Source: Populus alba (taxonomy: Eukaryota; Streptophyta; Magnoliopsida; Malpighiales; Salicaceae). Taken from it: DNA of 64,000 nucleotides. A program made the translations under genes and the position numbers. Below, in pieces: positions 1-52,508 of this stretch (its first letter is position 1; each line of letters opens with the position of its first letter). The stretch lies in contig NC_133301.1 in assembly GCF_005239225.2 (NCBI RefSeq), positions 7,031,157-7,095,156 of the forward strand, given 5' to 3'. Below the pieces are notes generated by a model that did no database searches, was not told the origin of the DNA, and worked only from the letters and a program-made list of their open reading frames with translations.

Positions 1-415
1 TTCTGCAAGACTTGTGAAAATTGTCAAAAGTTGGGATCTATTTCAAAACGTCACATGATGCCTTTAAATCCTATTCTTATCATTGAGATCTTTGACTGTT
101 GGGATATAGATTTCATGGGTCCATTTCCTCCATCATTTGGTTTCTTATACATATTAGTCGCAGTAGATTATGTTTCAAAATGGATAGAGACAACTCTGAG
201 TCGAAACAATGATCATAAAACAGTGATAAAGTTTTTGAAAGAAAACATTTTAAGTCGATTTGGAATCCTTCGAGCCATGATAAGTGATGGTGGAACACAT
301 TTCTGCAACAAGCCATTTGAGTCTTTAATGAAGAAATATGGAATCACACACAAATTTGTCACCCCTTATCACCCTCACACAAATTTGCCACCCCTTATCA
401 CCCCTTATATGAAGA
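1..415 (+). pseudogene. Athila-like integrase fragment (zinc finger end and catalytic core)
   Basis: The frame is open from the window edge and starts with CKTCENC, the cysteine half of the HHCC zinc finger. It continues through the core with WDIDFMGP (first catalytic Asp) and ISDGGTHF (second catalytic Asp). It reaches TPYHPHTN, just before the expected Glu region, and then runs into a short local duplication (accccttatcacc...) and a deletion. The catalytic Glu and the C-terminal domain are missing, so this is non-functional. The same protein is nearly complete at 40458-41474 on the minus strand. Confidence 0.85.
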
Positions 416-648
416 AATATATAAAGATTGATTCTTTTTTTTTTTCTCACATTGTTTTTATGTTTCTTTTTTTGTGTGACTTTTGTTTTGCTAGTCTCTC
501 ACCCTGGTCAAATGGCAGATAACGGTACTTTGTGACTCTTAAGTCGGTTCTTTCAGTTTCTCATGATAACTGATATTTGTGTATATATTTGTGCAATTCT
601 TTGCTCTTTCTCTTTTCTTTGCATCTTGTCTCAAATTCTCATTTGAAA

Positions 649-1198
649 ATGGACACCACTCTTGAAAAATTGAAAAAGTATTTTCCCACTCTGCCTCAAA
701 ATATGATTACAAAAATTTACCGTGCTAGATATGCAAGATTGAGGTTGTTGATGAATCATGGAATTTCTAAAGATATTCGCTGGCTGATTGAAGCAAAGGT
801 CTGATTATCAGGTGAGTCCTTCAATTCTTTCATTTCATACATGCCTAGAACAAGTAAAAAACACTTTTGCGAAGAAACGTCATGCAAAATGACTGAAAGT
901 CTGTTACAGATGTGCTAGATGGACTTGTAATGCCACATGTTGTTCTTTAGGAATGATATCTGTAAACCATGAAGATAAAATACAATTCATTAGGGATGGC
1001 CTGAGTAAGGGGTCTTTAGATAATCTTTTATTGACTCTTAAGACGCACCCTAGTGGAGATGTGCATCGTGCAATTCATGATTTATGGTCACAATTCCATA
1101 AAGAACATGCTCGACTTAGTCTTGGGAATCAAACTAAAAAAGACCCTGTTTGCCAGTTTTTAAGAAAACTGGATGGGAAGCCTATCCCCCACCCATAG
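649..1198 (+). pseudogene. Small basic cysteine-rich ORF, viral nucleic-acid-binding-like, broken (copy 1)
   Basis: The first 51 codons start at ATG 649 and end at a TGA at 802-804. The paralogue at 37252-37800 has CGA at this position and its frame runs on. A one-base insertion near 855 shifts the rest, and a further TGA follows near 889. The last 81 codons (953-1198) are open again. The intact portion of the family is a Lys/Arg-rich stretch directly followed by CxxC and CxxxC cysteines, then a conserved block around QFIKDGLSKGS. This layout resembles the cysteine-rich nucleic-acid-binding proteins of Betaflexiviridae (carla- and vitiviruses), some of which suppress RNA silencing. The match is by eye only. 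It lies between integrase and LOG. Confidence 0.45.
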
Positions 1199-1448
1199 AG
1201 GGCGTTTAAGTTGTTCTTGGACGTAAAACCAAAGAAAGACGTGAGCCACAATCACAACTACCTATACATACATATGCTTTTTCAAAATAAATAAATAAAT
1301 AAAAAGAGAGAGAGAGTGTGTGAGACTACAGCTGACCTACATATAGGTGGTATGATTGCATTTTTAATTTCTCATTTATAAATTCTTCTCTTCCTTCCCT
1401 TCATTTCTACTGAACCCATACATTCATCAAATATAGAAGTGTGTATAA
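1199..1448 (+). other. Spacer between the small ORF and LOG
   Basis: This is non-coding. It contains an A/T-rich run (aataaataaataaa) followed by a short GA microsatellite and a C/T-rich stretch just before the LOG start codon. The same spacer is found at 37801-38049, and its first part at 52391-52508, so it belongs to the element and moved with the cargo. It could be a leader or promoter for LOG, but no clear TATA box was identified. Confidence 0.6.
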
Positions 1449-2102
1449 ATGGCAAATTCCTCAAGTCATCACATAAGAAATTTTTGTGTTTTTGGTGGAT
1501 CCGGTCCTGGGAAAGAAAAAGAGTTTTTAGAATCAACAAATCATCTTGGTCTGGTACTAGGTGAGCGAAAGATTCATTTAGTGTATGGAGGAGGCAGCCT
1601 TGGGTTAATGGGGGGTGTGTCAATAACTGTATTTTTAGGAGGTAGTCAAGTTTCGGGGGTCATCCCCAAAGCTTTAGCAAAAGGGGACATTATTGAAAAA
1701 ACAATTGGAGAGGAATTACATGTCTCCACAATGTCCGATAGACTGAATGCAATGTTTAACCATGCTGATGCCTTCATTGCCTTACCAGGTGGTCTGGGCA
1801 CATTGGAAGAGATCTTTCATATTTTCTCTTGGGCCCAACTGCACATTCACCATAAACCCATAGGTTTGTTAAATGTTAATGGTTTTTATGATAAGTTGTT
1901 GTCTTTTCTTGATCATGCTGTGGAACAAGAATTTCTAATATCTTCAGCACGACAAATCATAATCTCTGCTGCTACTGCTGAACAATTGATTGACCAACTA
2001 CAATCTTTCATCCATGTAATTAATCCCTCAATGAGTCGCATAAATTGGTCAACTAAGAAAAGCCGTAAAAATCTTAGATTGGATTTGAGCCTTTGTTTGT
2101 AA
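1449..2102 (+). CDS. LOG-family cytokinin riboside 5'-monophosphate phosphoribohydrolase, element-borne
   Basis: The ORF has 217 aa with no internal stop or intron, about the usual length of plant LOG proteins. LOG enzymes release free cytokinin base from the nucleotide in the cytosol. Visible motifs are the nucleotide-binding GGGSLGLMG (residues 47-55), Arg98, and the signature PGGLGTLEE (113-121), followed by the conserved WAQLHIHHKPIGLLNVNGFYD region cut here at SWAQ and FYDKL. It most resembles the LOG10-like plant branch (tail WSTKKSRKNLRLDLSL). Differences from canonical LOGs are Gly16 where CVFCGS has Cys, and Leu99 where many LOGs have Lys after the active-site Arg. Plant LOG genes normally have several introns, so this is probably a reverse-transcribed copy. 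It sits between pol and the 3' end of an Athila-like element. Expression and activity are unknown. Confidence 0.8.
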   Translation: MANSSSHHIRNFCVFGGSGPGKEKEFLESTNHLGLVLGERKIHLVYGGGSLGLMGGVSITVFLGGSQVSGVIPKALAKGDIIEKTIGEELHVSTMSDRLNAMFNHADAFIALPGGLGTLEEIFHIFSWAQLHIHHKPIGLLNVNGFYDKLLSFLDHAVEQEFLISSARQIIISAATAEQLIDQLQSFIHVINPSMSRINWSTKKSRKNLRLDLSLCL

Positions 2103-2227: not shown

Positions 2228-2269
2228 GGACATTGAGGACAATGTCTCATTTTGGTTGGGGGGAAAGGG
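2228..2269 (+). promoter_or_regulatory. Athila-type 3' segment and candidate polypurine tract
   Basis: The sequence ggacattgaggacaatgtct followed by ttttggttggggggaaaggg is the typical end of the internal region of Athila-like elements. The G/A-rich end (2254-2269) would prime plus-strand DNA synthesis. It supports placing LOG inside the element rather than next to it. A recognisable LTR does not start directly after it, so the element is truncated or rearranged here. Confidence 0.6.
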
Positions 2270-2429: not shown

Positions 2430-2646
2430 CAGAATACATTAATCTTCCATCTCAAAGTTCTCATCAACTTCTTCTTCATCTTCATTATTATTATTATTAT
2501 TATTGTTGTTGTTGTTATTGTTATTATTATTGTTATTGTTATTGTTATTGTTATTGTTGTTGTTATTGTTGTTGTTGTTGTTGTATTATTGTTGTCTATA
2601 ATTTATACAATTAACCTCCTTGTGATTTAACCCCGGTCTTGCATGG
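2430..2646 (+). mobile_element. L1 LTR remnant (3' portion) with trinucleotide run
   Basis: It matches the region at about 39470-39800 of the + oriented L1 LTR: cttccatctcaaagttctca, a (TTR)n run, then tttatacaattaacctc and ccccggtcttgc. Both LTR ends are missing. It lies just beyond the LOG element tail and could be its decayed 3' LTR. Confidence 0.65.
2488..2590 (+). repeat. (TTA/TTG)n trinucleotide microsatellite within LTR
   Basis: About 100 bp of mixed ATT, TTG and ATTGTT units. The same position of every L1 LTR copy carries a related trinucleotide run of different length and composition. Confidence 0.9.
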
Positions 2647-4049
2647 TGATCCCTTTATTCGGGATCCTAACATACACTAAATGTATGCCAGTCCATGCCA
2701 ATTTCACCCATTAATATTATCATTCTTTGTTTGACCATAGTTATCATTACAAATTTTCATTTTGAACATGACTTGTTTCTTTTGGAAGCTAAGATATAAT
2801 ATCACATGTTCCCCGAAGGGAAAGGACCCAAATTTTCTCCCTTTAACGCGTCTAAATAGTCGCTTTAGCGACTTTCCGAATCTATCGATAGAGATCATAT
2901 TCCAACCTCTCCTTAGATTTATGAATATATCACCATCCAAAACTACAATTACTATGAAGGAATCCAATCCTAATTCCCTCATCTTCCTACTCAAATTCTC
3001 TTCAAAAGTCAAGAGACGAATCTGTTTAGATTCATCAACCTTTCCATTTACACACAACATCCATAATTCAACTTTTTCTCTTTTATCTCGACCCCTAGCC
3101 ATATCACATACCATATAAGAGTGTTAAAAAATATCTTTTTAAGAGTCAATTTATCATATTTATTTCAATCTTCCTTCTTAACATCAAAATAGAACATTCT
3201 CATCGAATTTTACAAACTTTCCGAACAATATTCTTCTTAACACAATCCTTGACATTTCAACATGCATTTTTTCCCCTTATTTTGACATAATTAAACACAT
3301 GTCATCAAGCTAAATATGTGAAATTAAACATCCTCCCCTTTTGATGCATAATTGATCGAAAGCATGGCCTTAAGGAACCAATAATTCCCTCATTCTTTTC
3401 ATGCTAATTTCATTCAATTCACACACACATTCACATAAAAAAACAACCTATTATAATAAATTCATTAAGGAAAACCACAATTTGCCTTTTTTCCTCTTTG
3501 CTCTTCATATGGTCAGCTAACTTTCCTTGCCCCCACTCATTTGGCTAGCTCTTTATATCAATCTAAGTTGTCCTTAGAAATGAGGATAACAAGCACAATA
3601 ATCTTATACAATTTTTTTTCATGGCAACACTCATGACACCAACCGTCATGTTTAATCTTGTTTCCATTATCAAATTTCTCATTCTTTACTATTGTAAATC
3701 AACATGTAGCATAAACAAATAAAATTTTAGAATATATTAAACTCTTCAAAATATAAAGAGGTGAGGTGGGAAACATGTACTTGTTCCTTTTAGTGGTCTC
3801 GTTCTGCTAGCTTGAGGTCCAAATCACTTTATATGAGACTCTAATTTCCTATAAGTTTTTGTTCTTGGAGCTGTCCAAATCAGCCTCTTAACACCCATTA
3901 GTAGGGCTGTCATAATAGCCTTGCTTTAGTTTCTTGGAAACATTTTTGATCCCTAACAACTCTACACTTAAAGCTGTCATTCCAGCCCTTTAAAAAAAAA
4001 AAAAGATTTGGAGAGGTATTTTAGCCCCACTTAAACATAGACTTTCAGG
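2647..4049. other. Unclassified old repeat sequence, no gene
   Basis: No convincing coding sequence. Overlapping ORFs on both strands at 2704-3118 show no known domain. The part at about 2930-3065 (ccaaaactacaatta ... cctttccatttaca) matches 49888-50010, so it belongs to a dispersed family, possibly an LTR in reverse orientation. The rest has no feature I can name. Confidence 0.5.
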
Positions 4050-30034: not shown

Positions 30035-30988
30035 CTAACCTTCATAGAAAGGTTTCAAATGATGCACATTGACCTTGAGTACTTTGTTGGTTTCTAAACT
30101 TGTAATTTCAACTGCACCATAAGAAAAAACAATAGAAACAACAAAGGGTCCAATCCAACGAGAGCACAACTTTTCAGGAAAAAGTTTCAAACCCGAATGA
30201 TAAAGAAGGACTTTGTCTCCAACATTAAACTCTTTTCTTGTAATCATTCAGTCATGAAGACTTTTGATCTTTTCTTTGTAAATCCTTGCATTCTCATAAG
30301 CATCATTTTGTATTTCTTCCAATGTAATTCCAATCTTTTTGGGCACCAAAAATATAGGCGCCACCCATTCACTATCCATGATGAGGTGAATGATTCCTAC
30401 ATCATGGGGAATAGTTTGTAAGGCTTGCAAAGCCAATGCTGATTCATGCACATTTTGGGGAGCACATATATGCCTCTTCATCTCTTCTACGCTTAATCCA
30501 TCCTCACTATTAAAATCACAAACTTGTTGCACACACTTATCAACTTGGTCATAACATGTGATAGAATAAACATTGCTATAAGGATATGTCATTGCATCAT
30601 GAAAATTAAATTCAATTTTTTCATCTCCTATATCTATAGACAAAGTATCCTTACCACAATCAATTTTTGTATTGGCAGTTTTCAACAATGGTCTGCCAAA
30701 TAATATAGGAGTGTTATTTGATGAATCATAAGAATCATGTTCCATATCAAGAATATAAAAGTCGCATGGAATGCCCAAACTATCAATCTTGACCGGGACA
30801 TCTTCTATCACACCAAGTGGGTAAACAAAACTACGATCCGCAAGTTGTATTACAATGCTAGTTTTATTCAAAGGCTTAAGACTAAGAAAATCATAAACAT
30901 GTTTAGGCATAACACTAATAGATGCACCTAAATCGCAAGGCCCTTTTGAAACTAGCATTACCAATAACACATGGGATAGTAAATGCAC
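30035..30988 (-). pseudogene. Athila protease joined by deletion to integrase C-terminus
   Basis: The frame 30988-30248 starts in the aspartic protease with DLGASISVMPKHVYDF (active-site DLGAS) and LFGRPLLKTANTKID. It goes on to the start of the RT region, EWVAPIFLVPKK, and then switches in frame to integrase C-terminal sequence IGITLEEIQNDAYENARIYK. After a stop at 30250-30248 the integrase tail continues to 30035 (FNVGDKVLLYHSGLKLFPEK, RWIGPFVV). The RT palm, RNase H and integrase core are absent. The join keeps the frame, which may be chance. Confidence 0.85.
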
Positions 30989-32560
30989 CTAGGTCATTTT
31001 GCTTCAAAGGCATATTCTTTTGAACAACAGCAGATACAACTTCACCCATACTTACCATTTCATGACCTTTCAGTTTAAAAGCTCTGTTGGTAGTACATAA
31101 CTCTTTCAAGAATTTGGCATACTTGGAAATTTGATTAATAGCATCAAGTAAAGGAATGTTGAGTTCTACTTTCTTGAAAACCTCTAAAATCTCTTTTTCT
31201 TTATCCTCTTTCTTTGACCTAGAAGAACTCATAGGAAAGGGTGGAATTGTTTTAAAACTGGAATTCATTAAGTGAGGAGTTACCTTTGGAGTGTTGGTTA
31301 ATGGTTTAGTTTGTGGAGGAGGAGGATGTTCCTTCTTTATACTCAATTCAATTTGTATCTCTTCTTCTTTCTCCATCTCAATTTGTTTTGACATTTTCTC
31401 TTCAAGTTCATTCCCACTTCGCAACATGATCGCACTAACATTCTCTATTAAATTCAATGCTTGGGAGGGCAATTTTCCATTCATTTGTGCTTCCAATTTC
31501 CCCACACTTGAAGCTACTTGCCCCATTTTCTTCTCCAAGTTGTGAATACTTGACCTTCTTTCCTGTTGGAAAGACATGATATTTTGCTGCAAGGTTATAG
31601 TGTTAGAGGCCAAAGTTTTCATCATCTCATGAAGATCATCAATGGATGACAAACCCATAACATTGGAGTTTGTGAATGGAGGGGGTTGTCTTGCTTGATA
31701 ATTCTGTTGGGGCTGAAATCCATAGGGATGGAATTGTCAGCCTTGATTGCCTTATTGAGGTTGGTTCCCATAACGTAGGTTGGGATGATCTCTCCATCCA
31801 AGATTGTACATGTGGGAAAAAGGATCATACTTACATTGAAGTTGTCCATTGAATCCTCCATCAACTGCATGAACTTGTTTAATGTAATCTTCTTGCATTG
31901 TTGGGCACATATCTGATGTATGTCCTCATAAAGAACATATGCTACAAACTTTCACCTGTTATACATTTCCACAAGCCAAAGAACGAACAAGAGAAGTAAG
32001 ATCATTAACTTTATTTTTAAGGTTAGAAATACTTACCTCATTTACTCATTTGTTTGTGAATTCTCCACATGTGCCAAATTGTTTCAAGTTGGCTACCATA
32101 TTTGAGATCAATTGGCGTGCATCCTTGGGTTTTGTATCTACCAATGCCCCTCCATTTGTAGCATCAATGATACTACGGTTAGTAGGCATAAGTCCTTCAT
32201 AAAAATATTGAATGAATAGTTAATCAGGTATCTGATGGTAAGGGCATTGAATGCACAATTGCTCAAATCTTTCCCAAAACTCGGAAAATGTCTCTCCATG
32301 TGATTGTCGAATTCCACATATTTATTTCCTTATGTTGGCAACTCGAGATGTTGGGAGATATTTTTCAAGGAAAATCTTCTTCATTGCATTTCACATTTCA
32401 ATGGAACCTGGGAGAATAAAGAAAAACCATGCCTTTGTTGCCCCTTTTAAAGAGAAAGGGAAAGCTTTCAACTTAACATGTTCTTCGTCAACTCCATCCG
32501 ATTTCATGCCAACGCAAACCATATGGAACTCCTTGAGATGAGTATGAGGATCTTCACCTG
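30915..32560 (-). pseudogene. Athila gag, broken
   Basis: The N-terminal retrotransposon-gag region (about 32560-32050) shows AFPFSLKGATKAW, FFFILPGSIEM, ICGIRQSHGETFSEFWERF and FYEGLMPTNRSIIDA, with several stops. The C-terminal part, 31658-30915, is open: a coiled-coil-like MSSIDDLHEMMKTLAS stretch beginning at MGLSSIDD, then a Pro-rich and Lys/Glu-rich region, then LDAINQISKYAKFLKELC, which precedes the protease. A frameshift near 30950 separates it from the protease frame. Confidence 0.82.
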
Positions 32561-35705: not shown

Positions 35706-37004
35706 TGACACGACCAAAACCTTGATGTCTTCTCCCAAGTGCAGGAGTGTCGAAGTAATAAATAGCCCGGCAAGACCGGGGTCGAACCACAGAGAGGTTA
35801 ATTGTATAAATTATAAATAACAATACAACAACAATATCAATAATAATAACAATAATAGTAATGGTAATAATAATAATAATGACAATTAGTAGTAATACTA
35901 ATAATAATAGTAGTAGTAGTACTAATATTAATAATAGTAATAGTAATAATAAAGAGAGCTTTGAGATGTAAAATTGATGTAAGGATTAAACAATCATAAA
36001 AACAAATGTCAAGGTTAGAGAATCCACTAATAGTATCCAACGTTAAGGTCCATGTTAAGTTTATATTATACTTATTCTTACACCATTAGTGTACCCTTTT
36101 CACCTTGACATAATTAACTTAGCTAAACATAATGAAAGAAAGAAACCTAAATGAACAAGATAAGAACATGAATGAGAAAGAAGTTAACTAAGTAAAGAAA
36201 AGGAAATGAAGTGCATAAACTTGATATTAATGAAAGAAAAACATAAGAAATACAAAGAGAGAAAGCAAGAGCATGATCTTGATCTAGAAACCAAGATGCC
36301 TCAATACATGGTAAGTGCCTTCTTTTATAGGCCAAAATTTGAAACTATTGATTTGTTGACTAATTGATGAGTGGGTGGCCATATCTTGACTTGGTGACAA
36401 TCCTTATCTTCTTGTCTGAACATGACGTCATTGCTAACATCATAATTTGCATAGAATCCTTAAGAATGTTCTAGGAAATTGTCTTAGCTTTCCAACAAAA
36501 TAAAGATGAGGTCATTTGAACTTCTAGAACTCAAGATATGGGCTGAATACTAAATAGTATCTGGGCTGTAGGACAGCTTTGGACTTCTTCGTTGTTCCTT
36601 CAATTTGAAGTTTCAAATGGCCTTTTTAAATCTTGGGCTCCTCATGAAAGTTGTAGGCCTTTGTCTTACCTTTCCATCCATATAAAATGGACCTAAATCC
36701 GAGGTCTAGAGCTCCAGATATGATCCAATTACCGAGCAATGTTCCGGTTTGGACTGCACCAGCATCTCTTTTCTAAGTTTGGTCATCTCTTTGTCCTTTC
36801 ACTTTCAATACTTAAAATCATCAATCAATCCTTTCATTTATATGATAGGCCTGCATTTAAGATGAGCATTTACCATAAATTATGGTATCTTGTAGTATCA
36901 AACTTGTTATTATAAAACATGCTCTAGTTAAGGAGTTATTGATACTTCAAGTGCAAAATGATGATATAAAACCTTGATAAACATGCACTTTTAAATACTA
37001 ATCA
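35706..37004 (-). repeat. 3' LTR of the L1 element, with ~355-bp internal deletion
   Basis: It has TG...CA ends and is 1299 bp, against 1653 bp for the partner LTR. The missing part lies between two tagta motifs (at about 46278 and 46623 in the partner), so it was probably lost by slippage or recombination at a short repeat. The trinucleotide run is at 35822-35950. Confidence 0.9.
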
Positions 37005-37014
37005 CACTCCCCAA
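37005..37014 (-). promoter_or_regulatory. Polypurine tract of the L1 element
   Basis: The minus strand reads TTGGGGAGTG directly before the 3' LTR start TGATT, the position where plus-strand synthesis is primed. The next ~190 bp up to 37204 is the non-coding end of the internal region. Confidence 0.7.
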
Positions 37015-37251
37015 CCAGTGTATTACTAGTCCCTAGTAATCAAAAGCGTTAAAATAGAGAAATAATTTGCAAGTTCCACAAAGCAAGACATTTATCATTC
37101 AACTTTCATTAATCTATCTAGATAAACAAACTCTCATTAAAATTATATTCCTGTTTCATATTTCTTAAACAAGATATTAATTAACCTTCTTTTTATGTGC
37201 TCTTAGCTCTTTCTCTCTTCTTTGAATCTCTTCTCTAATTCTCTTTTGAAA

Positions 37252-37800
37252 ATGGACACCACTCTTGAAAAGTTAAAAAGGTATTTTCCCGCTCTGCCTC
37301 CAAATGCGATTACAAAAATTTACCGTGCTAGGTGTGCAAGATTGAGGTTGTTAATGAATCATGGAATTCCTGAAGATATTCATTAGCTAATTGAAGCAAA
37401 GGTCCGATTATCAGGTGAGTCCTCCAATTCTTTCATTTCACACATGCCTGGAACAGGTACAAGCATTTTTGCAAAGAAACGTCGTGCAAAACGACTGAAA
37501 GAGTGTCACAGATGTGCTAGATGGACTTGCAATGCAACATGTCGTTCTTTAGGAATGGTATCTGTAAACCGTGAAGATAAGATACAATTCATTAAGGATG
37601 GCCTGAGTAAGGGGTCTTTAGATAATCTTTTGTTGACCCTTGAGATGCATCCTAGTGGAGATGTGCATCGTGTAATTCATGATTTATGGCCACAATTTCA
37701 TAAAGAACATGATCGACTTGGTCCTGGGAATCTAACTAAAAAAGACCCTGTTTGCCAGTTTTTAAGAAAACTGGATGGGAAGCCTATCCCCGACCCATAA
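37252..37800 (+). pseudogene. Small basic cysteine-rich ORF, viral nucleic-acid-binding-like (best-preserved copy)
   Basis: ATG at 37252 and stop at 37798-37800, 183 codons in a single frame broken only by one in-frame TAG at 37384-37386. The second part (from ATG 37444) is open: a Lys/Arg-rich FAKKRRAKRLKE run, cysteines in CHRC and TCNATC, then DKIQFIKDGLSKGS and PSGDVHRVIHDLWPQFHKEH. The basic run followed directly by CxxC...CxxxC and then a FI/V-x-x-G element is the arrangement of Betaflexiviridae cysteine-rich nucleic-acid-binding proteins. This is read by eye and a chance resemblance is possible. It is oriented opposite to its host element and lies just before a broken LOG. Confidence 0.5.
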
Positions 37801-38776
37801 AGGGCGTTTAAGCCGTTTTTGGACGTAAAACCAAGGGAAGATGTGAGCCACAATCACAACTACCTGTACATACACATGCTTTTTCAAAATAAATAATTAA
37901 TAAAGAGAGAGAAAGAGTGTGTGAGACTACAGATGGCCTACATATAGGTGGTGTGATTGCATTTTCAATTTCTCATCTATAAATTCTTCTCTTCCTTCCC
38001 TTCATTTCTACTCATCCCATACATTCATCAAATATAGAAGTGTGTAGAAATGGCAGGTTCCTCAAGTCATCATATAAGAAATATTTGTGTTTTTGGTGGA
38101 TCCAGTCCTGGGAAAGAAAAATAGTTTTTAGAATCAGCAAATCATCTTGGTCAGGTACTAGCTGAGAGAAAGATTCATTTAGTATATGGGGGAGGTAGCT
38201 TTGGGTTAATGGGAGGTGAGTCAATGGGATTTATGGTAAATGTTCATCTTAAATGCAGGCCTATCACATAAATAAAAGGATTGAATGATGAGTTTAAGTA
38301 TTGAAAGTGAAAGGATAAAGAGATGGTCAAACTTAGAAAAGAGATGCTAGTGTAGTCCAAACCGGAACATTGCTCGGTAATTGGATCATATCTAGAGCTC
38401 TAGATCTCAGATTTAGGTCCATTTTATATGGATGGAAAGGTAAGACAAAGGCCTACAACTTTCATAGGAGCCCAAGATTTAAAAAGGTCATTTTGAAGTC
38501 CAAATTGAAGGAATAACGAAGAAGTCCGAAGCTGTCTTGCAGCCCAGACACTATTTAGCGTTCAGCCCATATCTTAAGTTCTAGAAGTCCAAATGACCTC
38601 ATCTTTTTTTTGTTGGAAAGCTGAGACAATTTCCTAGAACATTCTTGAGGATTTTGGGCAAATTATGATTTTAGAAATGATGTCTTGTTCAGACAAGAAA
38701 TAAGGATTGTCACCAAGTCAAGATGTGGCCACCCACTCATCAATTAGTCAACAAATCAATAGTTCCAAATTTTGGC

Positions 38777-38787
38777 CTATAAAAGGA
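38777..38787 (+). promoter_or_regulatory. TATA box of the L1 LTR
   Basis: cctataaaagg, conserved in the L1 LTRs (complement at about 46914-46926 and 36324-36334). It would direct element transcription. It overlaps the start of a conserved but spurious short ORF. Confidence 0.55.
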
Positions 38788-39512
38788 GGCACTTACCATG
38801 TATTGAGGCATCTTGGTTTCCAGATCAAGGTCATGCTCTTGCTTTCTCTCTTTGTATTGCTTATGTTTTGCTTTCATTAATATCAAGTTTATGCACTTCA
38901 TTTCCTTTCCTTTACTTAGTTAACTTCTTTCTCATTTATGTTCTTATCTTGTTCATTTATGTTTCTTTCTTTCATTACATTTAGCTAAGTTAGTTATGTC
39001 AAGGTGAAAAGGGTACACTAATGGTGTAAGAATAAGTATAATATAAACTTAACATGGACCTTAACGTTGGATACTAACATGTTTTATATTTGTTATCTTG
39101 TTCACTTTTAATACTTTGCTTGTTAAATGGTTAATCTACATTTATGTTGTATAACACTTGGTACAACAAATACTTGGCACTTTCATAGCCCATACTGTAT
39201 GCTATAACCGACACCTGAGCTATGAAAGAAACTTGATTTGTTGTTAACATAAGTTATAATCATGAATGCCTGCCAACATTTACAAGTATTAACTTTATTC
39301 GAATAAGATAACTAATGTAATCATGTTAATAATTTATAATCTGATTGGAACCTCCTTTATGTGTGGTTTCCAATTGAGTAATAAGAGTTTATATTATACT
39401 TGTTTGAAGTACCATTAGTGGATCCTCTAACCTTGACATCTATTTTTATCGTTATTTATTCCTTACATTAATCTTTCATCTCAAAGTTCTCATTAATTTC
39501 TTCTTCTTCTTC

Positions 39513-39546
<34 letters not shown>

Positions 39547-39666
39547 TGCATTCTGTTTATATTATATAATATATCTCTTTGATCTTTTCATAAACTCAGT
39601 ATATAGGCTGGAAACCTGTGACCCGATCTTTTAGATCATTCTCAGGTATAACAACGCCACGTACTG

Positions 39667-39667
<1 letters not shown>

Positions 39668-39720
<53 letters not shown>

Positions 39721-39741
39721 GTTATTATTGTTATTGTTGTT
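39668..39741 (+). repeat. (ATT)n microsatellite in LTR
   Basis: About 17 ATT units followed by GTTATT variants, the purest trinucleotide run in the window. Confidence 0.92.
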
Positions 39742-40099
39742 GTCTTGTTATTTATAATTTATACAATTAACCTCTCTGTGGTTCGACCCCGGTCTTGCCA
39801 GGTTATTTATTACTTCGACACTCCTGCACTTGGGAGAAGACATCAAGCTTTTGGTCGTGTCATCTTTTCTTGATCAAGCTGTGGAATAGGAATTTCTAAC
39901 ATCTTCAGCACGACAAATCCTAATCTCTGCTGCTATTGCTGAACAATTGATTGACCAACTACAATCTTTCATCCCTGTCATTGATCCCTGCATGAGTCGC
40001 CTAGATTGGTCAACTAAGGAAAGTCGTAAAAAGCTTAGATTAGATTTGAGCCTTCATCTGTGAAACCTTGTGTCTTTTGTTGGAGGACTCACTTGATAA

Positions 40100-40254
40100 T
40101 CAGACCTTTGCTTCAACCAGCCAATGAATATCTTCAGGAATTCCATGATTCATTAACAACCTCGATCTTGCACACCTAACACGATATATTTTTACAATCG
40201 CATTTTGAGGTAAAGTGGGAAAATATTTTTTAATTTTTCAAGAGTGGTGTCCAT
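40100..40254 (-). pseudogene. N-terminal fragment of the small cargo ORF, frameshifted
   Basis: It starts MDTTLEKLK on the minus strand at 40254. One base is lost compared with the + copies (aaaatatttt against aaaggtatttt at about codon 10), so the frame breaks. The sequence is followed by the gtgagtcctccaa junction, where the element switches to the inverted block at 40080. It lies in the correct orientation and position after integrase, showing that the cargo ORF is native to this element. Confidence 0.75.
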
Positions 40255-40457
40255 TTTCAAATGAGAATTGAATAAGAGATTCAAAGAAGGGAGAAAGAGC
40301 AAAGAATTACACAAATATATATAGATATTAGTTATTTGGGAAACTGAAAGAACCGACTTAAGTCACAGAGTACCGTTATCCGCCATTTGACCGGGGTGAA
40401 AGAGAGACTAGCAAAACAATAGATACAACAAAACATAAAACAATGTGAGAAAAAGAA

Positions 40458-41645
40458 TCAATCTTTATATACAGGATCACTCAATTCAATAGAGTCATTT
40501 TCAACCGAAAAATTATCAAAATAAACTTTCAAACGATGCCCATTTACCTTGAAAACATTGCCATTCTTTGGATTCTCAATATCACAGGCCCCATATGGAT
40601 ACACATGTTTCACAATAAAAGGACCACTCCATCTTGATCTTAGTTTTTCAGGAAATAAATGGAGTCGAGAATTATAAAGTAAGACTTTTTGACCAACATT
40701 GAATGTTTTTATCAGTATTTTCTTGTCATGAAACTCTTTAATTCTTGCTTTATGAATTTTTGAATTGTCATATGCATCATTTCTTATTTCCTCAAGCTCA
40801 TTTATTTGCAATTTTCGCAGCTGACTAGCATCATCAAGGTTTGAATTGAAAGCTTTAATAGCCCAATAAGCTTTATGTTCAATTTCCACAGGCAAGTGAC
40901 AAGGTTTTCCATAGACTAGTCTATAAGGTGACATACCAAATGATGTTTTATAAGCAGTTTGATAAGCCCAAAATGCATCATTAAGTCTTAAAGACCAGTC
41001 TTTCCTATTAGGGTTCACTGTTTTCTCCAAGATTTGTTTGATCTCCCTATTAGCAAGCTCTACTTGTCCACTTGTCTGAGGGTGATAAGGGGTGGCAACT
41101 TTGTGTGTGTTTCCATATTTCTTCATTAAAGAATCAAATGGCTTGTTGAAGAAATGTGTTCCACCATCACTTATCATGACTCGAGGGATTCCAAATCGAC
41201 TCAAGAAATTATCTTTCAAAAACTTTATCATTGTTTTGTGATCATTGTTTCGACTTGGAATTGCCTCTATCCATTTTGAAACATAATCTACTACAACTAA
41301 TATGTACACGAAACCAAATGATGGAAGAAATGGACCCATGAAATCTATACCCCAACAGTCAAAGATCTCAATGACAAGAATAGGATTTAAAGGCATCATG
41401 TGACGTTTTGAAATAGATCCCAATTTTTGACAATTTTCACAAGTCTTACAAAATGCATGTGAGTCCTTGAACATGGTGGGCTAGTAAAATCCACTTTGTA
41501 AGATTTTGGCAGTTGTTTTTTTCAACGAGAAATGACCCCCACATGCCTCAGAATGACAAAATTTAATGACACTACTTACCTCATTGTCAGGAATGCATCT
41601 TCGAAATATTTGATCAGGACAATATTTGAATAAATAAGGGTCATC
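40458..41645 (-). CDS. Integrase of the L1 Athila-like element
   Basis: 338 codons open from 41474. Sequence upstream to 41645 encodes the zinc-binding His part ([14 protein letters not shown]) with one stop before the ORF. The order is CKTCENC, core Asp in WGIDFMGP, second Asp in ISDGGTHF, Glu in [13 protein letters not shown], then [20 protein letters not shown] and a C-terminal domain with [20 protein letters not shown] and [18 protein letters not shown]. All three catalytic residues are present. It inserts element DNA into the chromosome. It is normally cleaved from a gag-pol polyprotein, so the separate start is only the limit of the open frame. Confidence 0.85.
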
Positions 41646-43465
41646 CTAATAAAAGTTCTTCACTTCGTTCAAGAATTTTCTTTTATCTTGGGTACTCCAA
41701 TGAGCTAGCAATTGTCCTGAAACAAGAAAATTAACAATATTACCAAACCAAGGCATCGTAAAAACGAAAAGTAAAGATTCATCGGGAAAGTAGTCATCGA
41801 TTGGTGTGATGTTAGATTTTGAATCTATTGTCAATCTTAACAAATGATATGCAACAAAATTTTCGGTGCCTTTCTTGTCTTTGATTGTGATATCAAATTC
41901 TTGAAGTAACAAAATCCACCGCACCAATCTAGCCTTAGAATCTTTCTTAGAAAGAAGATATTTCAATGTTGCATGATCACTAAAAACAACAACATGTGAG
42001 CCAACAAGATAAGACCTGAATTTATCACAAGCAAATACTACTGCAAGTAATTCTTTTTCAGTGGTGGTGTAATTATTTGAGCACTATTTAAAGTTTTACT
42101 TGCATAGTAAATCACATAAGGTTTCTTATCTTTTCTTTGTCCCAAGACAGCACCCATTTTTACTTGCATAGTAAATCACATAAGGTTTCTTATCTTTTCT
42201 TTGTCCCAAGACAGCACCCATGGCATAATCACTAGCGTCACACATTATTTCAAAAGGTAATGACCAATCAGGAGGTTGAATAACAGGAGCAGAAGTGAGC
42301 AAGTTTTTAAGTTTGACAAAGGCTTCTTCACAATGTTTAGTCCATTCAAAAATATTATCTTTTGTTAGAAGGTTACTCAAGGGCTTAGATATTACACTAA
42401 AATCTTTAATGAACCTTCTGTAAAAACCAACATGTCCTAAGAATAATCTAACATCTTTAACAGATTTTGGTGTTGGTAAGTTGGCAATTAACTCGATTTT
42501 AGATTTGTCAACCTCAATTCCTTTCGATGAAACAATGTGACCAAGTACAATGCCGTTTGTTACCATAAAGTGATATTTTTCCCAATTCAGTACAAGATTC
42601 TTCTCTTCACACCTACTCAAAACCTTTTCTAAGTTAGTCAAACAATCATCAAATGAATCACCAAAAACAAAAAAAATCATCCATAAAAATCTCAAGAGAA
42701 TGTTCAACCATATCACTGAATATGCTAAGCATGCATCTTTGAAACGTGATTGGTGCATTACATAATCCAAAAGGCATTCTTCGATATGCAAAAGTACCAA
42801 ATGGACATGTGAAAGTAGTCTTCTCTTGATCTTCCAATGCAATTTTAATTTGATTGTAACCTGAATAGCCATCTAGGAAACAATAAAATTCATGACCTGC
42901 AACTCTTTCTAGGATTTGATCCATGAAAGGTAAAGGGAAATGATCTTTTCTAGTCATAAAATTAAGTTTCCTATAGTCAATGCACATGCGCCAACGAGTA
43001 ACAGTCCTAGTTGGAATTAACTCATTTTTCTCATTTGTTATCACAATGACTCCAGACTTTTTGGGTACAACTTGTGTAGGACTTACCCATTTGAATAGGA
43101 TAAATGATTTCATTATCTAGAAGCTTAATGACTTCATTTTTCACTACTTCTTTCATATTAGGATTAAGCCTTCGTTGCATTTCTCTAGACGGTTTAGCAT
43201 TTTCCTCCAAATAAATCTTATGTGTGCAAATCAAAGGGCTAATTCCTTTTATGTCAGCTATGGTCCATCCTAATGCATTTTTGTGCATTTTCAGAGTTTG
43301 TAATAACTTACCTTCTTGATGTGCATTAAGTTTAGAAGAGATTATTACCGGAAAAGTTTCATTTTCTCCCAAAAATGAGTATATGAGATTAAATGGTAAT
43401 GGCTTCAATTCAGGTTTTGGTGGTTGAACACTTAAAGGTATGGACTCAATTGATCGTGGTGGCAA
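41646..43465 (-). pseudogene. Reverse transcriptase and RNase H of the L1 element, broken
   Basis: The open pieces are 43465-43031, 43113-42658, 42872-42126 and 41966-41646, in shifting frames. RT motifs include RWRMCIDYRKLN, DHFPLPFMDQIL, FYCFLDGYSGYNQI (catalytic Asp), RMPFGLCNAP and IFMDDFF, a form of the YxDD box. The next part has GFYRRFIKDFSVISKPL and RNase H CDASDYAMGAVLG. RNase H is then disrupted by a 64-bp tandem duplication (42097-42224), which shifts the frame. The last piece has [21 protein letters not shown]. The family copies element RNA into DNA; this copy cannot. Confidence 0.87.
42097..42224. repeat. 64-bp tandem duplication in RNase H
   Basis: Two adjacent copies of tacttgcatagtaaatcac...acagcacccat. 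The 64-bp length is not a multiple of three, so it breaks the reading frame. Confidence 0.9.
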
Positions 43466-43507
43466 TTCTTCAATCTGTGGTCTCCAATTGCATGCCTTTG
43501 ATTCTTC

Positions 43508-44191
43508 CTAAAAGTAGACCATTTGCAAATCATTAGATTCATCAATCTCAGTTTCATTGGAAGTGGTTTGAAATTGATCATGAACTAATTTTTCAATAAA
43601 GTCCACTTCCTGTAAATCATTATCATCTCCAGGTTGCTTGTAAATGTTGAAAATATTCATCTCTAATGTCATGTTTCCAAATGATAGCTTCATCAGTCCA
43701 TTCCTACAATTAATCAATGCATTAGAAGTGGCAAGAAATGGACGTCCTAAAATTACAGGAATTGAATTACATGCTTCAACAGGTTGTGTATCCAAGACAA
43801 TAAAATCTACAGGGTAAATGAATTTATCCACTTGTACTAACACATCCTAAACTATTCCTCTAGGCACTTTTACAGATCTATCAGCAAGTAAAAGAGTTAC
43901 AGAAGTTGGTTTTAACTCACCTAGATTGAGACTTTGAAAGACTGAATATGAAAGTAAATTCACACTAGCTCCAAGATCAAGTAGGGCTCTTTCAATTTTA
44001 TGTTCTCCAATAAAGCAAGAAATTGTAGGACAACCAGGGTCTTTATATTTCAAAGCATTATTGTTCTGAAGAATGGCACTTACTTGTTCGGCTAAAAAGG
44101 CTTTCTTTTTCACATTCAGTTTTCTCTTCACAGTGCACAGATCTTTCAAAAATTTAGCATAAGAAGGAACCTGTTTAATAGCATCCAACAA
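43508..44191 (-). pseudogene. Aspartic protease of the L1 element, interrupted by a stop
   Basis: 44191-43847 contains YAKFLKDLCTVKRKL and the active-site ALLDLGASVNLLSY, then LADRSVKVPRGIV and a stop. 43843-43508 continues with FIYPVDFIVLDT and PVILGRPFLATSNALINC. It would process the gag-pol polyprotein. Confidence 0.83.
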
Positions 44192-44797
44192 AGGTATATT
44201 GATCCTTACCTATTTAAAAGTTTCAAAGATTTCAGAGTTGTGATAGACTTTCCTTTGTTTGGTCATGGCATGAGGAAATGGAAATTCTAGCGGGGAATCA
44301 GTCTTTTCTTTGCAATGTTCAGGTTCAACCCCTTCCTTACCCTCAGAGATAGACTCATCATCTTTCTCACAAGGTTCAAGAATTGGTTTTTCAATAACCT
44401 TACCACTACGAAGAGTGATGACTGATTTGACTTGATTCATGTGTTGGCTTCCGGAACTACTTGCATTTGCATTGTATTGTCCCTTTGGATTTTGTTATGG
44501 TTGAGGTGGAAACTTACCTTTCTCTTGGAAACTGAGAGTAGATGTCAATTTTGCAAGAGCATGTTTAAAATCTGTCATGCTTTGAGCAAGTTGAGTGTTG
44601 ATTGTCTCCTGCTTTTCAATGAATGCATGCAATGTTTTCTCAAGATTTCTTCTAGGAGGTGGAGCATAAGGAGGTGCATATCCATGAGAATTTTGGAAAT
44701 TATGGTGTGCTTGAAACAGTGGCTGTGAAGTTTGTGTATTATTGCTATCACTCTTCCAATTGAAATTTGGGTGATTTCTCCAACCAGGGTTATACGT

Positions 44798-45705
44798 TTA
44801 TGAGTATGGGTTATGGTTGGGCCTTTGGAAACTATTTAGAGCATGGGTTTGTTCATGGAGGCATTCCCTAAAACAAGGCAAAGTTGGACAATCATTTGTT
44901 GAGTGTTCCTTGGTTTCACAGATTTGACACACAATGTCTTGAACAGATTTTAATTGACCACTCTTCTTCAATTCAAGTGCTTCGACTTTTTTAGCTAAAG
45001 ATGCAAACTTGGCTTGGAGGTCATGATCTTCCCTAAGGTTGTGCATACCTCCACTAGATGTATGAGGTTGAGTTTTACTTGGTGCCCCATAAGTACCTGT
45101 GGTGTCCCAATTTTGAGCATTTTCGGCTAACAAGTCCAGGTACTCCATTGCTTCATTAGGGTCTTTATCTTTGAAAGTTCAATTACACATCAATTCAACC
45201 ATTTGCCTATCTCTAGGTGTTAAACCTTTATAAAAATGTGAAACCAATCTCCATGTTTCAAAGCCATGATGAGGGCAACTGTTAAGCAAGTCTCGATACC
45301 TATCCCAACATTGGTAAAATGTTTCTCCTGGCTTTTGAGTGAAAGTGATGATTTGTCTTTTGAAAGAGTTTGTTCTGTGAGATGGAAAAAACTTCTTTAA
45401 AAATTGTTGTTGCATTTCATCCCAAGCACGAATAGATCCTGGTCTCAAATTTTGTAGCCATGTTTTAGCTTTATCTTTTAATGAAAAAGGAAAAAGCTTT
45501 AATCTAATGGTGCTCATGCTACAATTTGATTCATTATAGGTATTACAAACCTCCTTAAATTCCCTTAAATGCAAATATGGATTTTCTAGGTCTAAGCCAT
45601 GAAAAGAAGGTAAAAGTTGAATAATGTCTGGCTTAAAATTAAAATGAGATGCATCAGGAGGGAAAACTATGCATGAAGGTGCACTTGATTATCTTCTTCA
45701 GCCAT
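44798..45705 (-). pseudogene. Gag of the L1 element, broken
   Basis: The start is probably ATG 45705 (MAEEDNQVHLHA), followed by a stop and a frame change. 45574-45179 is the retrotransposon-gag domain (FPFSLKDKAKTWLQNL, FLKKFFPSHRTN, QKPGETFYQCWDRY, HFYKGLTPRDRQMVE). 45148-44798 carries a zinc knuckle CQICETKEHSTNDC (CX2CX4HX4C). A further open piece, 44440-44210, links to the protease. The protein would form the virus-like particle. Confidence 0.83.
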
Positions 45706-45921
45706 ATTTTCTGAAAATGATGAGGATACCCTACAAAGTCTACCACTTAATGTACATGACCAAACTCTCATGCACGTGTAAAAGGAGAATAAACGAAGAA
45801 AAGAAAAGAGAAGAAAAAGAAACAAAACAAAACAAAACAAAAGAAACAAGAGTTAGAAAAAATGAAAAGTGAAAAGAGAAAATGAAAATAAATATTATAA
45901 TTTATACAAGAATTTACCTCT

Positions 45922-45936
45922 CCGGCAACGGCGCCA
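45922..45936 (-). promoter_or_regulatory. Primer binding site of the L1 element (tRNA-Asp)
   Basis: The minus strand reads TGGCGCCGTTGCCGG, 6 bp inside the 5' LTR. It fits priming by tRNA-Asp, as in Athila-lineage elements. Confidence 0.88.
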
Positions 45937-45942
45937 AAAACT

Positions 45943-47595
45943 TGACACGACCAAAAGCTTGATGTCTTCTCCCAAGTGCAGGAGTGTCGAAGTAATAAAT
46001 AACCCGGCAAGATCAGGGTCGAACCATAGAGAGGTTAATTGTATAAATTATAAATAACAATACAACAACAATATCAACAATAATAACAATAATAGTAATG
46101 GTAATAATAATAATAATAACAATTAGTAGTAATACTAATAATAATTATAATAGTAATAATAATAGTAGTAGTAGTACTAATATTAATAATAGTAACAGTA
46201 ATAATAAAGAGAGCTTTGAGATGTAAAATTGATGTAAGGATTAAACAATGATGAAAATAAATGCCAAGGTTAGAGGATCCACTAATAGTACTTCAAACAA
46301 GTATAATATAAACTCTTATTACTCAATTGGAAACCACACATAAAGGAGGTTCCAATCAGATTATAAATTGTTAACATGATTACATTAGTTATCTTATTCG
46401 AATAAAGCTAATACTTGTAAATGTTGGCAGGCATTCATGATTATAACTTATGTTAACAACAAATCAAGTTCCTTTCATAGCTCAGGTGTCGGTTATAGCA
46501 TACATTATGGGCTATGAAAGTGCCAAGTATTTGTTGTACCAAGTGTTATACAACATAAATGTAGATTAACCATTTAACAAGCAAAGTATTAAAAGTGAAC
46601 AAGATAACAAATATAAAACATGTTAGTATCCAACGTTAAGGTCCATGTTAAGTTTATATTATACTTATTCTTACACCATTAGTGTACCCTTTTCACCTTG
46701 ACATAACTAACTTAGCTAAATGTAATGAAAAAAAGAAACATAAATGAACAAGATAAGAACATAAATGAGAAAGAAGTTAACTAAGTAAAGGAAAGGAAAT
46801 GAAGTGCATAAACTTGATATTAATGAAAGCAAAACATAAGCAATACAAAGAGAGAAAGCAAGAGCATGATCTTGATCTGGAAACCAAGATGCCTCAATAC
46901 ATGGTAAGTGCCTCCTTTTATAGGCCAAAATTTAGAACTATTGATTTGTTGACTAATTGATGAGTGGGTGGCCACATCTTGACTTGGTGACAATCCTTAT
47001 TTCTTGTCTGAACAAGACATCATTTCTAAAATCATAATTTGCCCAAAATCCTCAAGAATGTTCTAGGAAATTGTCTCAGCTTTCCAACAAAAAAAAGATG
47101 AGGTCATTTGGACTTCTAGAACTTAAGATATGGGCTGAACGCTAAATAGTGTCTGGGCTGCAAGACAGCTTCGGACTTCTTCGTTATTCCTTCAATTTGG
47201 ACTTCAAAATGACCTTTTTAAATTTGGGCTCCACATGAAAGTTGTAGGCCTTTGTCTTACCTTTCCATCCATATAAAATGGACCTAAATCCGAGATCTAG
47301 AGCTCTAGATATGATCCAATTACCGAGCAATGTTCCGGTTTGGACTGCACCAGCATCTCTTTTCTAAGTTTGACCATCTCTTTGTCCTTTCACTTTCAAT
47401 ACTTAAACTCATCATTCAATCCTTTTATTTATGTGATAGGCCTGCATTTAATATGAGCATTTACCATAAATTACGGTATCTTATAGTATCAAACTTGTTA
47501 TTATAAAACATGCTTTAGTTAAGGAGTTATTGATACTTCAAGTGCAAAATGATGATATAAAACCTTGATAAACATGCACTTTTAAGTACTAATCA
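45943..47595 (-). repeat. 5' LTR of the L1 element (1653 bp)
   Basis: It starts TGATTAGTACTTAAAAGTGC and ends GTCGTGTCA on the minus strand. It contains the TATA-type motif near 46920 and a long mixed AAT/AGT microsatellite at 46062-46208. Its partner at 35706 has a large deletion. Confidence 0.92.
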
Positions 47596-51779: not shown

Positions 51780-52508
51780 TGCTCTTTCTCCCTTCTTTGA
51801 ATCTCTTCTCCAATTTTCATTTGAAAATGGACACAACTCTTGAAAATTTAAAAAAGTATTTTCTCGTTTTGCCTCCAAATGCGATTGCAAAAATTTACCG
51901 TGCTAGGTGTGCAAGATTGTAGGTGTGCAAGATTGAGGTTGTTGATGAATCATGGAATTCTTGAAGATATTCATTGGCTAATTGAAGTAAAGGTCTGATT
52001 ATCAGCTGAGTCCTCCAATTCTTTCATTTCACACATGCTTGGAACAGGTAAAAGCACTTTTGCAAAGAAATATCATGCAAAAAACTGAAAGTCTATCACA
52101 GATGTGCCAGATGGACTTGTAATGTGACATGTCATTCTTTAGAAATGCTATTTGTAAACCGTGAAGATAAAATACAATTCATTAAGGATGGCCTGAGTAA
52201 GGGGTCTTTAGATAATCTTCTGTTGACTCTTGAGATGCATCCTAGTGGAGATGTGCATCATGCAATTCATGATTTATGGCCATAATTCCATAAAGAACAT
52301 GCTCAAATTTTTCTTGGGGATCTGACTAAAAAAGACCATGCATGCCAGTTTTTTAGAAAACTGGATGAGAAGCTTATCCCTGACCCATAGAGGGCATTTA
52401 AGCCGTTCTTGGATGTAAAACCAAGGGAAAATGTGAGCCACAATCACAACTACCTGTACATACACATGCTTTTTCAAAATAAATAAATAAAAAGAGAGAG
52501 ATAGACTA
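51780..52508 (+). mobile_element. Third copy of the LOG-element tail (no LOG present)
   Basis: It starts directly after satellite at gctctttctcccttctttga, the same spacer that precedes the small ORF at 37205, and runs through the GA-repeat leader. It then changes abruptly into a Tat-like integrase sequence at about 52509, so the LOG part is missing. Confidence 0.8.
51827..52390 (+). pseudogene. Small cysteine-rich cargo ORF, decayed (copy 3)
   Basis: The start MDTT is kept. A 16-bp duplication (ggtgtgcaagattgta) near 51905 and several stops destroy it; the basic/cysteine region at 52050-52130 has lost key codons. It is the most diverged of the copies. Confidence 0.75.

Follow-up and report, generated by a model that had tools for sequence, protein, structure and literature searches.

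A LOG gene as a probable passenger, next to an NABP-like ORF, in an Athila-like Gypsy family of Populus alba

The 64,000-nucleotide stretch of Populus alba DNA analysed here (the window; positions 7,031,157 to 7,095,156 of NC_133301.1) contains copies of an Athila-like Gypsy family that carries both an ORF resembling viral nucleic-acid-binding proteins (NABP-like) and a gene for LOG (cytokinin riboside 5'-monophosphate phosphoribohydrolase), the latter with good probability having been captured once and multiplied as a near-neutral passenger. In copy A, the integrase, the NABP-like ORF, a leader and LOG follow one another in this order, all reading in the same direction as pol. Copies B and C repeat the NABP-like ORF and the leader, and LOG is found in A and B (Table 1). 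This order, the recurrence of the ORF and the leader, and a large protein family support the original prediction that LOG is an element-borne, multiplied cargo, which had already been reported (PMC9289625). Counting against this explanation, LOG lies in sense with pol only in copy A, copy B is inverted within the element that surrounds it (element D), and copy C has no LOG. More surprising than the LOG cargo is its NABP-like neighbour, which offers the most interesting lead.

Element copies and their LOG genes

The LOG ORF of copy A is intact and lies between an integrase remnant at its 5' side and a purine tract at its 3' side, all on one strand, as had been predicted from the letters of the sequence. 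In the Pfam scan, PF03641 (Lysine_decarbox) extends across it over the whole profile (1-131 of 131, 1.2e-38), and its best relative in the PDB is At2g37210 (2a33, 3.1e-54), which we take to be AtLOG3. Both the GGGSLGLMG and the PGGLGTLEE motifs are found. With the PGGxGTxxE motif, R98 and E121 retained, the latter two presumably being the Arg and Glu that are essential in LOG, the ORF belongs to the LOG proteins by domain and motif. Since the motif residues are still encoded, this LOG could be active if it were transcribed. As an element, copy A is dead, judging from its truncated integrase and its frameshifted NABP-like ORF. Its 5' end lies beyond the window, and it has no LTR pair within the window. 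When the window is compared with itself, positions 1-382 of copy A align to 41453-41072 (92%) and 418-824 to 40471-40080, which leaves the copy A integrase about 600 bp short, in its 3' part, of the integrase of element D. The leader between the NABP-like ORF and LOG resembles a promoter followed by a 5' UTR, as far as its TATA-like and CT-rich stretches suggest; it is shared in full by copy B, up to the equivalent of A 1315 by copy C, and up to 1378 by the contig protein P0173. Downstream of LOG, the combination of ACATTGAGGACAATGT and the purine tract GGTTGGGGGGAAAGGG is what we take to be a typical Athila/Tat 3' end, and no second exact copy of this motif is found within the window.

Element D (35706-47595) shows the Gypsy order of gag, RT, RNase H and integrase between two LTRs and is flanked by a 5-bp target-site duplication with one mismatch (GCATC/GTATC). 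Its PBS-like TGGCGCCGTTGCCGG is presumably of the tRNA-Asp type, and one of its four ORFs scanned (43031-43465) has no Pfam match. Copy B is an inverted block within this element (37201-40079), with the NABP-like ORF, the leader and LOG on the plus strand. In its LOG, the stretch equivalent to A 1625-1901 has been exchanged for a 5'-truncated LTR. The second, broken LOG (38050-40063), which had been predicted to sit inside another copy of the element, is indeed located in the LTR-bounded element D, but its orientation does not agree, as it lies antisense to the gag-pol of D. Past the equivalent of A 1315, copy C runs into other sequence, pol-like by eye. The original prediction had overlooked both the ORF between integrase and LOG, present in copies A, B, C and D, and the LOG-less copy C. 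The starts of the plus-strand blocks B (37201) and C (51780) nearly coincide on the element (A 598 and 602, respectively; at CTCTTTCTC), as if the blocks shared a transcript start or a breakpoint.

Table 1. Features of the element copies in the window
Feature	Position	Strand	Evidence or remark
Integrase remnant, copy A	1..522 (ORF 31-522)	+	rve 3.2e-16; window edge cuts the element
NABP-like ORF, copy A	649..1195	+	frameshifted; tblastn with P0145: 649-888 (74%), 857-1195 in another frame (87%)
LOG leader, copy A	1199..1448	+	TATA-like TATAAAT at 1377-1383, CT-rich stretch
LOG ORF, copy A	1449..2102	+	uninterrupted, 217 aa; Pfam and PDB matches
ACATTGAGGACAATGT (2230-2245) and purine tract GGTTGGGGGGAAAGGG (2254-2269)	2230..2269	+	precedes the partial LTR-like stretch
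Partial LTR-like stretch	2435..2650	+	75-88% to 3' part of LTRs; partly simple repeat
3' LTR, element D	35706..37004	-	to 5' LTR: 94.5% over 974 columns, 91% over 348
NABP-like ORF, copy B	37252..37800	+	182 codons and stop; in-frame TAG at 37384; 91% to P0145
LOG 5' part, copy B	38050..38225	+	one in-frame stop
5'-truncated LTR replacing the middle of copy B LOG	38229..39862	+	matches 5' LTR of D from its position 125: 96.7% over 1319 columns, 91% over 196
LOG 3' part, copy B	39863..40063	+	one in-frame stop ahead of the terminal stop
NABP-like ORF 5' part, element D	40080..40254	-	sequence match
Integrase, element D	40458..41474	-	rve 3.5e-14
gag, RT and RNase H pieces, element D	42126..45574	-	Retrotrans_gag 3.5e-22, RVT_1 1.3e-19, RT_RNaseH_2 3.8e-19
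5' LTR, element D	45943..47595	-	TGATTAG...GTGTCA, then PBS-like TGGCGCCGTTGCCGG
Copy C	51780..52505	+	frame-broken NABP-like ORF (51827-52390) and leader to A 1315; no LOG

The family is called Athila-like here on account of its architecture and of PBS and 3'-end motifs that we take to be characteristic. None of the nine window ORFs scanned with Pfam contains the ATHILA ORF-1 domain PF03078, which is carried by 16% of Athila elements and absent in some members (PMC6317226). The additional 3' ORFs of Athila/Tat elements, env-like or ATHILA ORF-1 (PMC7264820, PMC6317226), occupy the same slot between integrase and 3' LTR as the two ORFs described here, in sense orientation in copy A, although they differ from the nine scanned window ORFs with regard to PF03078. 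A 2019 survey of such extra ORFs considered those of at least 250 codons (PMC6317226); both the LOG and the NABP-like ORFs are shorter and thus fall below its size limit.

The elements are surrounded by repeat families of 70-74 members, often with a spacing of 144 bp, arranged in many blocks between about 5500 and 58300 of the window. The Salicaceae satellites Palv148 and Sar145 are of similar length, and Athila elements have been described in Salicaceae centromeres (PMC12046899). As the window is rich in satellites, local duplication could have contributed copies. Two more ORFs on the minus strand at 30248-31658 look by eye like the gag-protease of another Gypsy element and have no Pfam match.

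The NABP-like ORF

The ORF found after the integrase or ahead of the LOG leader is conserved, 182 aa long and present in four window copies, all of them partial or damaged. A protein search with positions 37387-37797 of copy B, which contain no stop, retrieved 706 proteins. Among the best 120 of these, 119 have a precomputed Pfam match to Carla_C4 and part of them also to Viral_NABP. The window piece itself scores 27.8 bits against Carla_C4 (cut-off 20.9) and 27.2 bits against Viral_NABP (cut-off 23). In our own scan of seven NABP-like proteins, six exceed the cut-off for Carla_C4 and five that for Viral_NABP, with P0147 exceeding neither; at E <= 0.001, Viral_NABP matches 33 and Carla_C4 30 of 42 relatives, and none of eight shuffled sequences matches the profiles at E <= 0.1. 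Among the 41 other proteins of the alignment, which include ones from Xanthoceras sorbifolium and Acer yangbiense, identity to P0145 is 64-97%; Populus is also a source of close relatives.

The likeness is to the NABPs or cysteine-rich proteins of betaflexiviruses (carlaviruses and vitiviruses) and consists of a basic stretch, AKKRRAKRL, followed by cysteines in the arrangement CxxC...C...C, with profile matches above the curated cut-offs in most of the relatives scanned. It covers about 30-90 of the 182 residues. In contrast to the betaflexivirus proteins, the window ORF has long conserved flanks of its own and lies inside an LTR retrotransposon. The AlphaFold2 model is weak (mean pLDDT 57, pTM 0.31), and the PDB contains no sequence relative of the protein (best E 0.49). 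Common descent with the viral NABPs appears likely from the sequence comparison, and it is not proven, because the profile match is short and the structure model poor.

The ORF also appears to be tied to the leader beyond the window. Among the best 120 of the 706 relatives, 88 extend to the RKLD region near the C-terminus and four continue for at least 8 residues past the end of the ORF. Three of these four tails match the window leader, P0173 up to 1378 (72%) and both P0182 and P0224 only up to 1261, and the fourth is too short for matching. These tails link leader and NABP-like ORF outside the window, most clearly in P0173.

With regard to related viral sequences in plants, a flexivirus replicase-like sequence has been described in cucumber and a rhabdovirus-like one in Populus (PMC3136472). 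A limited search of the open-access literature returned no report of a carlavirus-type NABP in LTR retrotransposons, and a scan of IMG/VR viral contigs with P0001, the LOG alignment and the NABP-like alignment revealed no related locus. A virus-like NABP as the neighbour of LOG in an element may be new. Carlavirus NABPs act in silencing suppression or nuclear regulation. By analogy, the virus-type NABP and the cytokinin-activating LOG might form a two-gene module that pushes host cells to divide and weakens silencing during transposition, an idea that we consider very doubtful.

Relatives, selection and origin of LOG

Two LOG protein searches, taking the best 120 of 7905 and the best 120 of 7897 matches (E <= 0.001; 8000 scored), together yielded at least 143 distinct relatives. 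The named ones among the matches listed come from Populus alba, P. x canadensis, P. trichocarpa and P. nigra, with two from Xanthoceras in the second search; one P. x canadensis entry, P0051, represents 16 member sequences. The majority of the listed relatives come from metagenome sources. Metagenome genes are normally called without introns, so that the listed LOG proteins are either uninterrupted in the DNA or derived from transcripts. We infer that these metagenome proteins are linked to the element.

A FastTree phylogeny of 145 tips was built from 142 LOG proteins, two Arabidopsis LOGs and L001, a LOG from a genome contig that is discussed below; P0136 and P0137 were left out. The window LOG falls into a clade of 112 of the 145 tips (support 0.97), where the supports on the path leading to it are low (0.42-0.87), and a separate clade comprises 29 tips (0.997). 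The clade of 112 holds the P. alba models and P0051, and the RefSeq LOGL10 genes lie outside it. This clade and the 143 listed relatives indicate that the LOG family is multi-copy. For Populus, 13 LOG genes have been described (PMC3866579). Each of the two Xanthoceras sorbifolium proteins omitted from the tree is a LOG model in which two LOG parts are joined, and both were considered as candidates for an element-borne LOG. The stretch between the two parts of P0136 looks gag-like by eye, and the Pfam scan found no gag family match there.

Variants were counted without P0136 and P0137, in a protein set biased toward open frames, at 74 sites identical in P. trichocarpa LOGL10, L001, AtLOG3 and AtLOG8 (conserved), 58 intermediate and 50 variable sites. 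In the 112-member clade, singletons reach 0.97, 1.07 and 1.04 per site in these three classes, and variants present in at least four sequences reach 0.64, 0.66 and 0.94. The corresponding values in the 29-member clade are 0.45, 0.34 and 0.50 for singletons and 0.12, 0.05 and 0.12 for shared variants. Copies A and B diverge by 0.076 in the leader, by 0.093 in the NABP-like ORF, and by 0.085 and 0.104 in the two parts of LOG, whose differences are distributed over codon positions 1, 2 and 3 as 7/3/4 and 8/6/7, small numbers without an excess at the third position. Because conserved sites vary almost like the others and LOG diverges like the noncoding leader, recent LOG copies look like near-neutral passengers in these comparisons. 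Shared variants are less frequent at conserved sites than at variable ones, which would be compatible with weak selection on LOG among the multiplied lineages. The suggestion made at the outset, that a working hormone-activating enzyme could be spread in this way, sits poorly with copies that seem to bear little sign of purifying selection.

The same data bear on whether LOG is a selected cargo, kept by selection at the level of the element because local cytokinin activation would favour dividing cells, where the element would transpose or gain access to the germ line. The full length of exactly 217 aa in 113 of 144 proteins (the window LOG counted in, the relatives taken from the best-120 lists) would be expected from such a process, and so would the retention, within the 112-member clade, of R98 in 105 and of E121 in 107 sequences, residues that we take to be essential, and the scarcity of shared variants at conserved sites. 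A protein database of open frames, however, favours intact copies in any case, and P113 of the PGG motif has been lost in 21 of the 112 sequences. Strong selection on the cargo was set aside given the nearly equal singleton counts at conserved and variable sites and the codon positions of the A-B differences, and selection for LOG in general is regarded as unlikely. Still less probable appears a mixed locus, in which the LOGs of A and B would be members of a host LOG family that multiplied through segmental duplications of satellite-rich DNA and would have acquired their surrounding elements by insertion. The abundance of satellites in the window would suit it, as would the rearrangement points that edge copy B and its antisense position in element D. 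It does not account well for the NABP-like ORF and leader standing ahead of LOG in both A and B, a pair that recurs in copy C and in P0173, nor for the similarity of A to the other copies, which ends at the block ends, and LOG has been found in Gypsy consensuses elsewhere (PMC9289625).

The favoured explanation, a single capture followed by near-neutral multiplication, would proceed as follows. LOG and the sequence upstream of it would have passed once from a host gene of the LOG10 type into an ancestor of the family; LOG would then have multiplied as a passenger through transposition of the element, with every new copy decaying nearly neutrally. How LOG entered is a separate matter of origin, and entry as a spliced and reverse-transcribed transcript, compatible with the passenger explanation, is a tentative possibility. 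The uninterrupted LOG of copy A would fit such an entry, as would the 3 to 7 exons into which the LOG genes of peanut are divided (PMC13257298). On the other hand, the sequence after the stop of the copy A LOG lacks a poly(A) run, and the leader would be promoter-like as well as 5' UTR-like. Of seven loci found by a scan of genome contigs, six belong to bacterial records and show 34-42% identity, and the seventh, L001, shows 61%. This contig, 4148 bp long and probably plant contamination of the Mycobacterium assembly under which it is filed, has an uninterrupted LOG ORF of 231 aa (1315-2010); over 217 residues the ORF shares 61% identity with P. trichocarpa LOGL10, and the two are alike at the C-terminal end. 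It suggests that intronless LOG10-type genes exist, although the L001 LOG could itself be a retrocopy. The donor gene may thus have been intronless, and the uninterrupted ORF, from which capture through reverse-transcribed LOG mRNA had been predicted, is no proof of that route.

Known systems and significance

A LOG cargo in Gypsy elements is already known. A screen of 121 angiosperm genomes detected YgdH, the LOG domain, among the Gypsy consensus sequences of Citrus sinensis and C. clementina and, once a filter was dropped, also among those of P. trichocarpa (PMC9289625), so that the cargo as such is not new; the result is in line with Steinbauerova et al. 2011, cited in that article. The elements described there share with the present ones a LOG-type domain in a Gypsy element, Populus included, and differ in that section 12 of the article makes no mention of an NABP-like ORF. 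The same study reports orchid Gypsy elements with an AlkB m6A demethylase, likewise a cellular-type enzyme encoded as an extra ORF; AlkB was active when assayed in vitro (PMC9289625).

Where Athila-like elements carry LOG, a gene that activates a hormone can be multiplied by a retrotransposon inside the genome of a tree. The 2011 work reportedly describes two Athila-like elements with a LOGL4-like ORF, and we know of no enzyme assay, comparable to that of AlkB, for the LOG found here. The many full-length LOG copies in databases could serve as a source of new LOG genes, and they are a trap for annotation, as element-borne genes may be found among the LOG models of Populus. Furthermore, if the likeness of the NABP-like ORF to viral NABPs reflects common descent, genes would have moved between RNA viruses and retrotransposons, in either direction, and a role of this ORF in the escape from silencing would become testable.
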